Positions 25,145 through 31,622 of a DNA stretch of 38,771 nucleotides are shown piece by piece (positions within the stretch are counted from its first letter, which is position 1; every line of letters begins with the position of its first letter). Origin of the DNA: an uncultured Bacilli bacterium (GTDB lineage Bacteria > Bacillota_I > Bacilli_A > RF39 > UBA660); assembly GCA_947627915.1 (NCBI GenBank), contig CANQXT010000007.1, forward strand, positions 1-38,771. The letters run 5' to 3'. The notes below the pieces were generated by a model. The model was not told the DNA's origin. It ran no database searches and worked only from the letters and a program-made list of their open reading frames with translations. Made by a program: the position numbers and the translations under genes.

Positions 25145-27262
25145 TTAGACGTTTAATTCTTTTACCAAATCATTATCTTCATTATAAAGAATAATTAATT
25201 CGTGTAATGCTCTAGTCATTGATACATATAATAATTTCATATCTAAAGTATTATTAATATCATACTTATTTAAATCATTAATAATTACGGCATCAAATTC
25301 TAATCCTTTAGCTAAGTAATTTGTTAAGATACATACTCCTCCATTATATTTAGTATTCTTATTAGTTATTAAATCTATCTTTATTTTATCTTTTAACATC
25401 TTATAAACAAGATTACTTTCTTTTTCACATTTACATATAATAGCAATACTTTGATAACCTTTATTTTGAAAATAATTTATTTTTTCTAAATAATAATTTT
25501 CTTTAACCATATTCTTATCTAATAAAACTTTATTACCGTGTCTTAAAACCGATATAGCATTTCCATAACCAAAATGTTTAGCTACAATATTAGCACTACT
25601 CATTATTTCACAAGTTGTTCGATAACTTTTTTCTAATTTTTCTAAAGAACAATCATTATGAAAGATATCATTAATAACACTTTCCCAATCACTAATACTT
25701 TGATAAGAATAAATTGATTGAGCTAAATCACCAAAGATAGAAAAAGTACTATTTTTAAATAATTCTTTAATAACATAAAAATGATATAAACCAAAATCTT
25801 GAGCTTCATCAATAACGATATGTGCATATTTATCATAATTTTTATATCCCTTAAAAATAATATTTAAATGTATTAAAGCAGGTAAATCTTCATAACCAAA
25901 GGTTTTAGTTTTAATATAATCTAAAGTATTTTCTTGAAGGGTATTTATTATACAATCATCTTCATTAAGATATTTATCACAATTAAGAATAAAGTTTTTA
26001 TATAATTCACTAGTTTTTAAATTATAATTATGAAAATAATTATTAATAATTTTATCAATATGCATTATATCTTGATTAAATTTTTCTGTTATATTTAGTA
26101 TTTCTTTTTTTCTTATTTCATCTTGACTATTTAAATATTCATTTTTATATTTTAACCAATATTTATATTTAATATCATCACCATATTTTTTCAAATAATC
26201 TTTACCATATTTAATTAATAATTTAATTTTTTCTTCTATACCTAAATTATTTTTATTCATAAAATTACTAATTGTTTTTTGATCAATTAAAGTTACACCT
26301 TCATAACTTATATCACCATGAACAATATTATTTAATAAATCTTTTATATACTTATCTAATGAATCTTTATATTTTAAAGAAGATTTATATTTAATATTTT
26401 TAATTAATAAATTATTTTGCATTAACATTTCTAAACGCATATTTTGATCAATTATTTTAATTTTTTCACCTAAAAAATTATTAACAATATCTAAGAATGT
26501 TTTTTGTCCTACAGCATTAACTTCTAAGTCAGGTAATACTTTTGAAATATAATCCATAAAATAAGCATTAGGACCAATAACTAAAAAAGAACTTTCTTGA
26601 TAATTTTTTTGTTCATTATAAACAAGATAAGCAATACGATGGAGAGCTACCGTAGTTTTACCAGAACCAGCAGTTCCTTGAATAATAATATTTTCTTTTA
26701 GATCTTCTCTAATAATATGGTTCTGTTCACTTTGAATAGTAGCAACAATATTTTTTAAACGATTATCAGCAGAAACACTTAAATAGGGTTTTAATAATTC
26801 ATCATTTGCTACAGCAGTTAAATCTTGATAACTTTTTAAAATACCATTAGCTATATCAAATTGTCTTTTTAATTCGAGATTGCCTTCAATTAAACCATTG
26901 GGAGATAAATACTTCGCACTTCCTAAAGAAGAATCATAATAAAGACTGGAAATAGGAGCACGCCAGTCAACAGTTATAGGGTTTTCATCATTATCTAGAA
27001 TACCAACTTTCCCTATATAACATATTTCTTTTTTGCCACTTGAATCGACAAAATCAATCCGCCCAAAATAAGGATTATTAATATACTTATTTAATAATCT
27101 TATCTGGGTTCCATAATAACTTAGTAGATTTTCCTGTAAAATGGGATCATTTTTGTAAGTTTTACTTACACTTTGCATCTTCTTATCATAAAGAAATATT
27201 AAGTCACGATATTCCTTTATAACATCATGCAACTTCTTGTCTTCAATTTCTAGGTTGGTCAT
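25145..27262 (-). CDS. helD: HelD-type superfamily I ATPase (RNA polymerase recycling)
   Basis: UvrD/Rep-like motor. Walker A is 'GTAGSGKT' (196–203), helicase motif Ia/Q-like sequence precedes it, and Walker B is 'VIDEAQDFG'. The N-terminal ~190 residues start with a helical hairpin-like region and contain 'VDWRAPISSLYY', typical of HelD, which inserts into RNA polymerase and releases stalled complexes. At 705 residues it is a little shorter than B. subtilis HelD (774). The start is ATG 27262, eight bases after AAGGAGG; the track's GTG at 27271 is part of the ribosome site. Confidence 0.85.
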   Translation of the reverse strand: MTNLEIEDKKLHDVIKEYRDLIFLYDKKMQSVSKTYKNDPILQENLLSYYGTQIRLLNKYINNPYFGRIDFVDSSGKKEICYIGKVGILDNDENPITVDWRAPISSLYYDSSLGSAKYLSPNGLIEGNLELKRQFDIANGILKSYQDLTAVANDELLKPYLSVSADNRLKNIVATIQSEQNHIIREDLKENIIIQGTAGSGKTTVALHRIAYLVYNEQKNYQESSFLVIGPNAYFMDYISKVLPDLEVNAVGQKTFLDIVNNFLGEKIKIIDQNMRLEMLMQNNLLIKNIKYKSSLKYKDSLDKYIKDLLNNIVHGDISYEGVTLIDQKTISNFMNKNNLGIEEKIKLLIKYGKDYLKKYGDDIKYKYWLKYKNEYLNSQDEIRKKEILNITEKFNQDIMHIDKIINNYFHNYNLKTSELYKNFILNCDKYLNEDDCIINTLQENTLDYIKTKTFGYEDLPALIHLNIIFKGYKNYDKYAHIVIDEAQDFGLYHFYVIKELFKNSTFSIFGDLAQSIYSYQSISDWESVINDIFHNDCSLEKLEKSYRTTCEIMSSANIVAKHFGYGNAISVLRHGNKVLLDKNMVKENYYLEKINYFQNKGYQSIAIICKCEKESNLVYKMLKDKIKIDLITNKNTKYNGGVCILTNYLAKGLEFDAVIINDLNKYDINNTLDMKLLYVSMTRALHELIILYNEDNDLVKELNV

Positions 27263-27321
27263 AAATAACACCTCCTTAGAAATGATCTTTAAAAACTAAA
27301 TATAAGTTTAACACATTTTTT

Positions 27322-27358
27322 AAAAAAAAGAAATATTATTTAAACATTTCAATATTTC
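27322..27358 (-). terminator. Terminator of the RSH gene
   Basis: GAAATATT (27351–27358 side) pairs with AATATTTC (27330–27337 side) on the minus strand, then eight T. The 5' arm is within the last codons of the gene. Confidence 0.82.
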
Positions 27359-28772
27359 TTATTCTTCTTCTTGAGTAATTAGTTTTCGCATCTTTTAAAA
27401 GTTCTTGTTTATCTATATAAGCATTAACACTTGTAAGAATTCGAACTCGATCATTATTTTGCAAAACATAATCATTTTTTACGGGTTCATCATTAACAAT
27501 AGCTCCGATCATTGTATTACCTACTTCGGAATGAATACGATAAGCAAAATCAACAACAGTAGCACCTTTAGGTAATTCCATTATTTCTCCTTTAGGAGTA
27601 TAAACATAAACTTTTTCTGTAAATAATTCTTTTTCTACTTCTCTAATAAATTCGGCATTATTACTAAATTTATTATCAATATCAACTAATGATTTATAAA
27701 ATTGAAATTTTTCTTTTAATTCTTCTTGCATTATAACTCGGGTATTACCATTTTTTATTTTAAAATAACTAGGTAATCCAAAACTAGCAACTTGATCCAT
27801 TTCATAAGTTCTAATTTGCGTTTGAACTAATAAATTATTGGGACCAAAAACAGTGGTATGTAAACTTTGATATAAGTTAGTTTTAGGACTAGCAATATAA
27901 TCTTTAAATCTCTTAGGAACAGGATGATAAACATTATGAATAAGTCCTAAAGCTTTATAACAATCTAATTCTTCATTAACCATAATTTTTAAAGAAAATA
28001 AATCGTGGATATTATTTAATTTTTGATGTTGTTCATATAAATATTTATATATACCATAAATATTTTTAGTTCTTATTTTAATATCATTATTTAAATCATA
28101 AGTTAATAATTTATGATGAATTACATCTTGCATTTCTTCTAGAATAGGTTGTTTTTCTTTTTCTAATTCTTTTTGAATAGTTAAAGTATCACAATATTCG
28201 TGTGGTTTTAAATATTGTAAAGATAAATCTTCTAATTCACTTTTTATTCGGTAGGCACCAATATAATATGCAAGAGGAACAAATAAATGCATCGTTTCTA
28301 AAGAATTTTCTCTTTGTTTATATTCTGATTTATATTGTAAAGTACGCATATTATGTAATCTATCAGCTAGTTTAATAATAATAATTCGAACATCATCTCT
28401 AATACTAGTAATTATTTTGCGATTATTAGCATTATTTAATTCTTCTTTAGAATTAAAATTCATTTTAGCAAGTTTAGTAACTCCATCAACTAAATTGGCT
28501 ATATCATCGTTAAAGTGATAAGCAATATATTTTTTTGTAGCTTCTGTATCTTCGATTACATCGTGTAAAAGTCCTGCACAAATAGTATCTCTATCAGCAT
28601 GTAACTCAGCAAGAATAATAGCTACATTTAAAGGATGAATTATGTACTCTTCCCCACTTTGACGATATTGTCCTTCGTGTAAAAGACGAGCACACTTATA
28701 AGCTTCATAAATCATTTTTTTATCTCTTTCACTATAATCTGTTAATAATTTTTCTAAATCTTTATACTCCAT
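27336..28772 (-). CDS. Truncated RelA/SpoT homologue, probably (p)ppGpp hydrolase
   Basis: A 478-residue RSH protein. The hydrolase domain looks intact: 'IIHPLNVA', HD at 70–71 in 'LLHDVIEDT', and 'KLADRLHNMRTL'. In the synthetase domain R234 and D291 ('RFKDYIASPK') are kept. The catalytic Glu of the EIQIRT motif is Gln317 ('VQTQIRT'), and the following 'MHxxAExGxAAHW' has become 'MDQVASFGLPSYF'. A TGS domain ends the protein near residue 440; the helical, zinc-finger and ACT domains of full-length Rel (~730 residues) are absent. Hydrolase-only activity is inferred. The start is the second Met (GGAGG five bases upstream). A leader peptide and hairpin precede it. Confidence 0.87.
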   Translation of the reverse strand: MEYKDLEKLLTDYSERDKKMIYEAYKCARLLHEGQYRQSGEEYIIHPLNVAIILAELHADRDTICAGLLHDVIEDTEATKKYIAYHFNDDIANLVDGVTKLAKMNFNSKEELNNANNRKIITSIRDDVRIIIIKLADRLHNMRTLQYKSEYKQRENSLETMHLFVPLAYYIGAYRIKSELEDLSLQYLKPHEYCDTLTIQKELEKEKQPILEEMQDVIHHKLLTYDLNNDIKIRTKNIYGIYKYLYEQHQKLNNIHDLFSLKIMVNEELDCYKALGLIHNVYHPVPKRFKDYIASPKTNLYQSLHTTVFGPNNLLVQTQIRTYEMDQVASFGLPSYFKIKNGNTRVIMQEELKEKFQFYKSLVDIDNKFSNNAEFIREVEKELFTEKVYVYTPKGEIMELPKGATVVDFAYRIHSEVGNTMIGAIVNDEPVKNDYVLQNNDRVRILTSVNAYIDKQELLKDAKTNYSRRRIRNIEMFK

Positions 28773-28786
28773 ATAAACCTCCATAA

Positions 28787-28823
28787 GAAAACAGCAACCA
28801 AAATCATATTAGTTGCTGTTTTC
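28787..28823 (-). promoter_or_regulatory. Perfect 12-bp hairpin in the RSH leader (candidate attenuator)
   Basis: GAAAACAGCAAC and GTTGCTGTTTTC are perfectly complementary with a 13-base loop. The 5' arm is the last four codons of the leader ORF and the 3' arm ends in TTTTCTTA a few bases before the RSH ribosome site. It could act as a weak terminator or as a translation-control hairpin sensitive to ribosomes on the leader ORF. Confidence 0.65.
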
Positions 28824-28895
28824 AGAAATTGCCCATAAAAATAGATTATTATAACTATTAAAGAGAAAATAATGTTTTAATAAAATATTTTTCAT
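28809..28895 (-). CDS. Leader peptide upstream of the RSH gene
   Basis: A 28-codon ORF beginning MKNILLKHYF and ending in WAISENSN, with AGAGAGG five bases before its ATG. It is downstream of a good promoter and its final codons form one arm of the RSH leader hairpin. A ribosome finishing the ORF would cover that arm. This layout is known for ribosome-controlled attenuators, including those of antibiotic-resistance genes. Too short for the ORF track; translation is not proven. Confidence 0.6.
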   Translation of the reverse strand: MKNILLKHYFLFNSYNNLFLWAISENSN

Positions 28896-28921
28896 ATGAA
28901 CCTCTCTATAAATTTCTTATA

Positions 28922-28950
28922 ACTCTATCGCATTTTTGAATTATTGTCAA
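28922..28950 (-). promoter_or_regulatory. Promoter of the leader peptide–RSH unit
   Basis: A perfect TTGACA (28945–28950), 17-base spacer and TAGAGT (28922–28927) lie just after the valS stop. The leader before the small ORF is about 20 nt. Confidence 0.7.
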
Positions 28951-31396: not shown

Positions 31397-31427
31397 AAAA
31401 AAAATTCACCCTTATCTAAAGGATGAA
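31397..31427 (-). terminator. T-box terminator hairpin of valS leader
   Basis: TTCATCCTT (31419–31427 side) pairs with AAGGGTGAA (31405–31413 side) on the minus strand, nine pairs with one G·U, followed by eight T. Confidence 0.87.
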
Positions 31428-31605
31428 CTTAAGTCCATGGTACCACCTTAATTTATACTTTTAAGTATACACTTTGAAACTTTAACGCAGTTATACGTAT
31501 TTTCTAAAATTAGAAAACAAGCTCATAAGCTACCTTCAATAACCTTTAATACAAATTTTCACCAACCATTTGCTCTCTAAAATTAAATAGTTATTTACTC
31601 CTCTT
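31397..31605 (-). promoter_or_regulatory. T-box leader of valS
   Basis: On the minus strand: 'TAGAGAGCAAATGGTTGGTG' at the base and top of Stem I, specifier region 'GAAGGTAGCTTATGAGC' with GTA (valine codon), and the T-box core 'AAGGTGGTACCATGG'. The specifier agrees with the gene downstream. It should be read through when uncharged tRNA-Val accumulates. Confidence 0.92.
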
Positions 31606-31622
31606 CTTCACAGCTTTTCCTT

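Follow-up and report, generated by a model that had tools for sequence, protein, structure and literature searches.

A candidate ribosome-operated transcription attenuator before a predicted (p)ppGpp hydrolase gene in uncultured Bacilli

The pyrBI operon of Escherichia coli senses UTP through pausing of RNA polymerase. A single intrinsic terminator lies in or at its leader ORF, pyrL, and a ribosome trailing closely blocks the hairpin (PMC5021804). The trp, his and ilv leader attenuators depend on codon-specific stalling of the ribosome within a short leader ORF that precedes the terminator, and use a mutually exclusive antiterminator; in most classical codon-sensing attenuators, a stall turns expression on. 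VmlR and BmrB of Bacillus subtilis also combine an upstream ORF with an intrinsic terminator, with the ribosome as sensor, but are induced by antibiotics, work through antiterminators and serve resistance genes. As cited in PMC9094748, short Cys-rich ORFs lie upstream of mycobacterial genes and respond to cysteine availability (Canestrari et al. 2020); these polycysteine ORFs are leaderless, and PMC13236596 presents them as mediating translation attenuation of cysteine biosynthetic genes. With regard to the enzyme, the closest counterpart is the hydrolase-only SpoT of Acinetobacter baumannii, an RSH that combines a functional HD domain with a pseudo-synthetase domain; it is full-length and carries C-terminal regulatory domains (PMC9974481).

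A locus that shares features with each of these systems precedes an RSH gene in the window, i.e., the whole 38,771-nt stretch of DNA analysed here, which belongs to a 1.29-Mb genome assembly whose near relatives are MAGs of uncultured Bacilli. A preliminary description had proposed that a TTGACA promoter leads into a 28-codon ORF with a ribosome site, and that the last four codons form one arm of a perfect 12-bp hairpin, the other arm of which abuts the RSH ribosome site. All of these elements are present on the minus strand (window 28960 to 28700), in the order ValRS stop, promoter, GAGAGG, leader ATG, hairpin, GGAGG and RSH ATG:

28922..28950, minus strand: SigA/sigma-70-type promoter, TTGACA-N17-TAGAGT, with a consensus score of 10/12, just past the ValRS stop codon (28957)
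28901..28906, minus strand: Shine-Dalgarno (SD) sequence of the leader ORF, GAGAGG, from the sequence
28809..28895, minus strand: leader ORF of 28 codons, peptide MKNILLKHYFLFNSYNNLFLWAISENSN, with its TAA stop within the extended stem, from reading of the ORF
28787..28823, minus strand: hairpin of intrinsic-terminator type, GAAAACAGCAACTAA / loop TATGATT / TTGGTTGCTGTTTTC, then TT, from the fold and from relatives
28778..28782, minus strand: RSH ribosome site GGAGG, downstream of the hairpin and unpaired in it, from sequence and fold
27336..28772, minus strand: short RSH of 478 aa with HD domain, degenerate synthetase domain, TGS domain and no ACT domain, a predicted (p)ppGpp hydrolase, from domain and residue comparison

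The best start codon for the RSH is the ATG at 28772. Two properties were not visible to the earlier reader, namely the terminator form of the hairpin and the usual richness of the leaders in cysteine. The attenuator locus gives no covariance match to a known Rfam riboswitch or T-box, the window yielding only a tRNA and a T-box at 31416–31620 (minus strand, 134.7 bits), which lies upstream of the same ValRS gene that ends just before the attenuator. The gene immediately following the RSH, at 25145–27271 on the minus strand, encodes the RNA polymerase recycling motor HelD (above the NCBIfam cut-off); among 40 loci checked, the two genes are neighbours in the three closest relatives only.

The hairpin is formed by the leader codons GAA AAC AGC AAC (28823–28812) paired perfectly over 12 bp with 28798–28787. 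On the minus strand G-U pairs extend the stem to 15 bp with a 7-nt loop, so that the leader stop codon is included, as compared with 12 bp on the plus strand. The folded leader has a z-score of −4.58, and none of 200 shuffles was equally stable. The T-run that follows in the window is modest (TTTTCTT), but longer in most relatives, whose hairpins have terminator form (e.g., stems CAGCAACTAGCC..GGGCTGTTGCTG followed by TTTTTTAT), with T-runs of up to 8 and a stem end situated ~16–30 nt upstream of the RSH start. The hairpin is best read as an intrinsic terminator and not as a stem that blocks the SD sequence. Sequestration of the RSH SD by the hairpin was considered and rejected, since the GGAGG lies outside the stem, 4 nt past it; and because the terminator hairpin is upstream of this site without covering it, transcription attenuation is likelier than SD control. 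A mechanism in which the hairpin or alternative structures gate access of the ribosome to the RSH start, with no termination of transcription, could draw on the 4-nt spacing and on the modest T-run in the window, but the unpaired SD and the position and T-runs of the stems in relatives make it very improbable.

To evaluate the generality of the layout, upstream DNA was compared for 108 short RSH genes and 12 long RSH genes, with the 70 best-matching short RSHs (~56% identity or more) as the core set. A terminator-like hairpin with a T-run is found at most 45 nt upstream of the start in 68 of these 70, and an ORF led by an SD sequence runs into the hairpin in 64; several of the six that fail display the layout by eye, with a weak SD or an unusual start. 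The same arrangement occurs in 8 of the 38 more distant short RSHs and in none of the 12 long paralogues. As background, ~313 genes were examined with a slightly stricter filter (the window plus 320 kb and 80 kb from two relatives). Five matches were obtained, three of which are this RSH, leaving two unrelated genes in the ~310 others, and one of these two matches lies before a ValRS-like synthetase gene; a terminator alone lies upstream of ~10% of other genes under this slightly stricter filter. The enrichment at the RSH gene gives a Fisher P of 7e-63, a value that overstates independence because the sequences are related by descent.

Stems and leader peptides have diverged almost completely among the relatives, and the short RSH orthologues are spread across the bacterial family, alongside a separate long RSH of ~710 aa. 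In 63 orthologue leaders, promoters matching at least 10 of 12 consensus positions number 37 against 4.2 expected, and the distance from the −10 element to the AUG is mostly 26–35 nt. The stop codon falls inside the hairpin at 51 of 72 loci, at most 20 nt before it at 14 and beyond it at 7, where the search itself demanded that the ORF reach within 20 nt of the hairpin. Leader ORFs that read through the whole terminator, as in pyrBI, are seen at L060, L062–L065, L092 and L104. In the window, promoter and hairpin come directly after the ValRS gene, as would be the case for an ordinary terminator of that gene accompanied by an incidental ORF. This is extremely improbable given that promoter, ORF and terminator persist while the DNA upstream of them changes among relatives, that 25 open codons would arise by chance with a frequency of ~8% at this composition, and that the background holds only the two unrelated cases. 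The comparison strongly supports that the layout is no accident and that the RSH gene is under control of a leader ORF. Loss of the ORF with retention of the hairpin, which the preliminary description had named as evidence against its proposal, was looked for in the relatives and is not what they display. The earlier idea of control by the leader ORF is well supported (64 of 70 orthologues, none of 12 long RSHs, 2 of ~310 background genes); its mechanism and sign are refined here.

Based on this architecture, we favour with moderate confidence a cis-acting, ribosome-operated transcription attenuator before a (p)ppGpp hydrolase gene, in which a finished leader would turn the RSH on, and a stalled or absent ribosome would turn it off. 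RNA polymerase would start at the TTGACA promoter and produce a leader RNA carrying an ORF of ~25–40 codons followed by the intrinsic terminator, with the ORF ending inside the 5′ arm of this terminator, next to it or past it. A closely trailing ribosome that finishes the ORF would cover the 5′ arm, so that the terminator does not form and the RSH is transcribed, whereas stalling upstream, or failure to initiate, would leave the arm free, allow the terminator to form and stop hydrolase synthesis. In most lineages the predicted stall site is provided by Cys codons 9–16 codons before the stop, under shortage of Cys-tRNA, and shut-off of the hydrolase would help (p)ppGpp to rise. The polarity, cysteine as the signal, the timing of coupling and the effect on (p)ppGpp are what we infer from sequence. 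That translation turns the RSH on is suggested by the overlap of the ORF end with the terminator arm. With the leading edge of the ribosome set 13 nt downstream of the A site, occupation of the stop codon usually brings the ribosome ~20 nt into the hairpin, with most of the 5′ arm covered, while at the last Cys codon it typically ends ~13 nt short of the hairpin. The proposed direction is based on this overlap and geometry, and on E. coli, where terminators are repressed by a ribosome positioned at a stop codon no more than ~27 nt away (PMC4824070) and where ribosome stalling upstream of the pyrL terminator increases termination (PMC5021804).

The opposite direction, in the style of trp/his, VmlR or BmrB, would have a leader ribosome stalled by amino-acid shortage or by an antibiotic promote an antiterminator and turn the RSH on. 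Attenuators with leader ORFs of this type are frequent in Firmicutes (PMC9226507, PMC4191407), and Cys codons upstream of the terminator would suit a stall site. However, pairing of the terminator 5′ arm with an upstream partner is at chance level (mean z +0.24, none below −2 in 63 leaders), there is no clear signal of an antiterminator partner for the 3′ arm (mean z −0.13), and with the ORF end overlapping the terminator, completed translation would antagonise termination, which makes the classical polarity unlikely. For the attenuator with finished translation as the on state, the chief doubt concerns transcription–translation coupling. In E. coli, a terminator located within the initial 100 bp of an ORF undergoes little repression, as coupling is not yet established at that stage (PMC4824070), and the RNA polymerase of B. 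subtilis is stated to outrun the ribosome (PMC9226507); a polymerase pause may therefore be needed.

The leader ORFs are mostly 23–40 codons long. Conservation of the small ORF in relatives, which the preliminary description had made a check of its proposal, holds for the open frame (64 of 70 orthologues) and not for the peptide. In nine close pairs, differences are distributed as 22/18/19 over the three codon positions, and 37 changed codons are non-synonymous against 10 synonymous, from which the peptide appears to drift nearly neutrally while the frame stays open. Cysteine constitutes 6.1% of leader codons, compared with 0.9% in the RSHs and 0.7–1.1% in genomes. This enrichment is frame-specific: TGY accounts for 119 of the 1948 in-frame codons, whereas the two remaining frames have 44 and 46 among 1885 (Fisher P about 6e-12, not corrected for phylogeny). 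RNA structure was for this reason rejected as the cause of the enrichment, although pairing is slightly more frequent for leader Cys codons than for the other codons. A set of 48 non-redundant leaders holds 88 Cys codons, as compared with 50.7 ± 6.0 in stop-free dinucleotide shuffles (maximum 72 in 300 shuffles), and 22 CC or CxC motifs versus 3.5 ± 2.0 (maximum 10), and the frequency of Cys peaks at 12%, 9–16 codons before the stop. Of the leader Cys codons (leaders of L004–L121), 46% are UGC, compared with 2–24% in genomes, a preference for which we have no explanation.

Recurrent hydrophobic Cys motifs (FLCLFCFLIK, CLCFLMNN) could indicate an arrest peptide or a functional Cys-rich micropeptide, where the amino-acid sequence rather than the codon supply is the sensor, but the even spread of changes over codon positions and the lack of any motif common to different genera render this quite improbable. 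The leader in the window contains no Cys and has LWA where its nearest relatives have LCG or SCG, a Trp codon replacing Cys. Cys sensing is for this reason a family-level claim. Of 63 parsed leaders, ten are free of Cys. The genomes of the genus hold no cysK (0 of 23) and only sub-cut-off cysE-like matches, in line with a predicted cysteine auxotrophy. We tentatively propose, as a possibility falling somewhat short of probable, that stalling at Cys codons turns off a dedicated (p)ppGpp hydrolase in cysteine-auxotrophic gut Bacilli, with reversed polarity, as a transcriptional arm of the stringent response beside ribosome-bound Rel.

The physiological sense of such control depends on the enzyme. 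HD_4, RelA_SpoT and TGS domains are found in the short RSH, which scores 504.9 bits with TIGR00691 (cut-off 499.2), and the 40 orthologues checked are 476–484 aa long. All 40 have intact hydrolase positions (R44, H53, HD77–78, ED81–82, D144 and N148), while the position aligned with E324 of B. subtilis Rel, which we take to be the catalytic Glu of the synthetase, carries Gln in 39 of them and His in the remaining one. The short RSH thus lacks the synthetase residue expected of a bifunctional Rel and, judged by these residues, looks hydrolase-only. It resembles the A. baumannii SpoT in this respect, but the inactivating residues differ (here E324 to Q) and the protein of the window ends after the TGS domain at 478 aa. 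The long RSH of the genus is its mirror image, with an altered HD motif (HE..NN-type or similar) and an intact synthetase motif in 23 of 23 cases (G000:C19:14712-16082, L137, and 22 genus relatives). Because of these reciprocal defects, synthesis and hydrolysis appear to be split between two genes in the genus, an apparent RelA/SpoT-like division that would have arisen within Bacilli; in other genera of the family, the long RSHs retain an intact motif, HD..ED (HD..EN in one). Of the two RSH genes, the attenuator sits on the predicted hydrolase. Two further HD_4 proteins are encoded in the genome, L199 (G000:C18; 446 aa, with a P-loop-like region) and L200 (G000:C48; 235 aa), the latter similar to small alarmone hydrolases and located near a collagen-repeat-like ORF; since their motifs are intact, the short RSH is not the sole possible hydrolase. 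The hydrolase-only appearance of the RSH fixes the likely physiological sense: if a stall turns the gene off, an alarmone hydrolase would be shut off when amino acids run short, and a halt of hydrolase synthesis upon starvation would be a sensible direction for the stringent response.

Compared with pyrBI, the leader ORF here also overlaps a single terminator that a ribosome could mask, but what varies is probably the progress of the ribosome, with Cys codons lying ahead of the terminator; in addition, an alarmone hydrolase is the target and the phylum is different. The codon-specific stalling predicted here would be shared with the trp, his and ilv leaders; unlike in these, no antiterminator was found in the leaders compared, and the predicted polarity is opposite. 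Relative to the mycobacterial polycysteine ORFs, compared here through the second-hand accounts cited above, the ORF is led by an SD sequence, and the terminator is intrinsic, the gene encodes a hydrolase and the predicted sign is opposite. The preliminary description knew of no such control in the RSH family, and the open literature, in which coverage is incomplete, likewise yielded no described RSH attenuator; this is a weak absence, as most subscription papers lie outside that scope.

Alarmone hydrolases are usually viewed as controlled by protein conformation. Here, expression of the hydrolase gene itself seems to be gated by translation of a leader, in a family from which over 100 genera have been sampled, and with Cys codons in the leaders of most lineages. 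If this is true, (p)ppGpp would rise by two routes under amino-acid limitation, through more synthesis and through loss of hydrolase supply, and an attenuator free of antiterminators would extend a pyrBI-like logic to amino-acid sensing.
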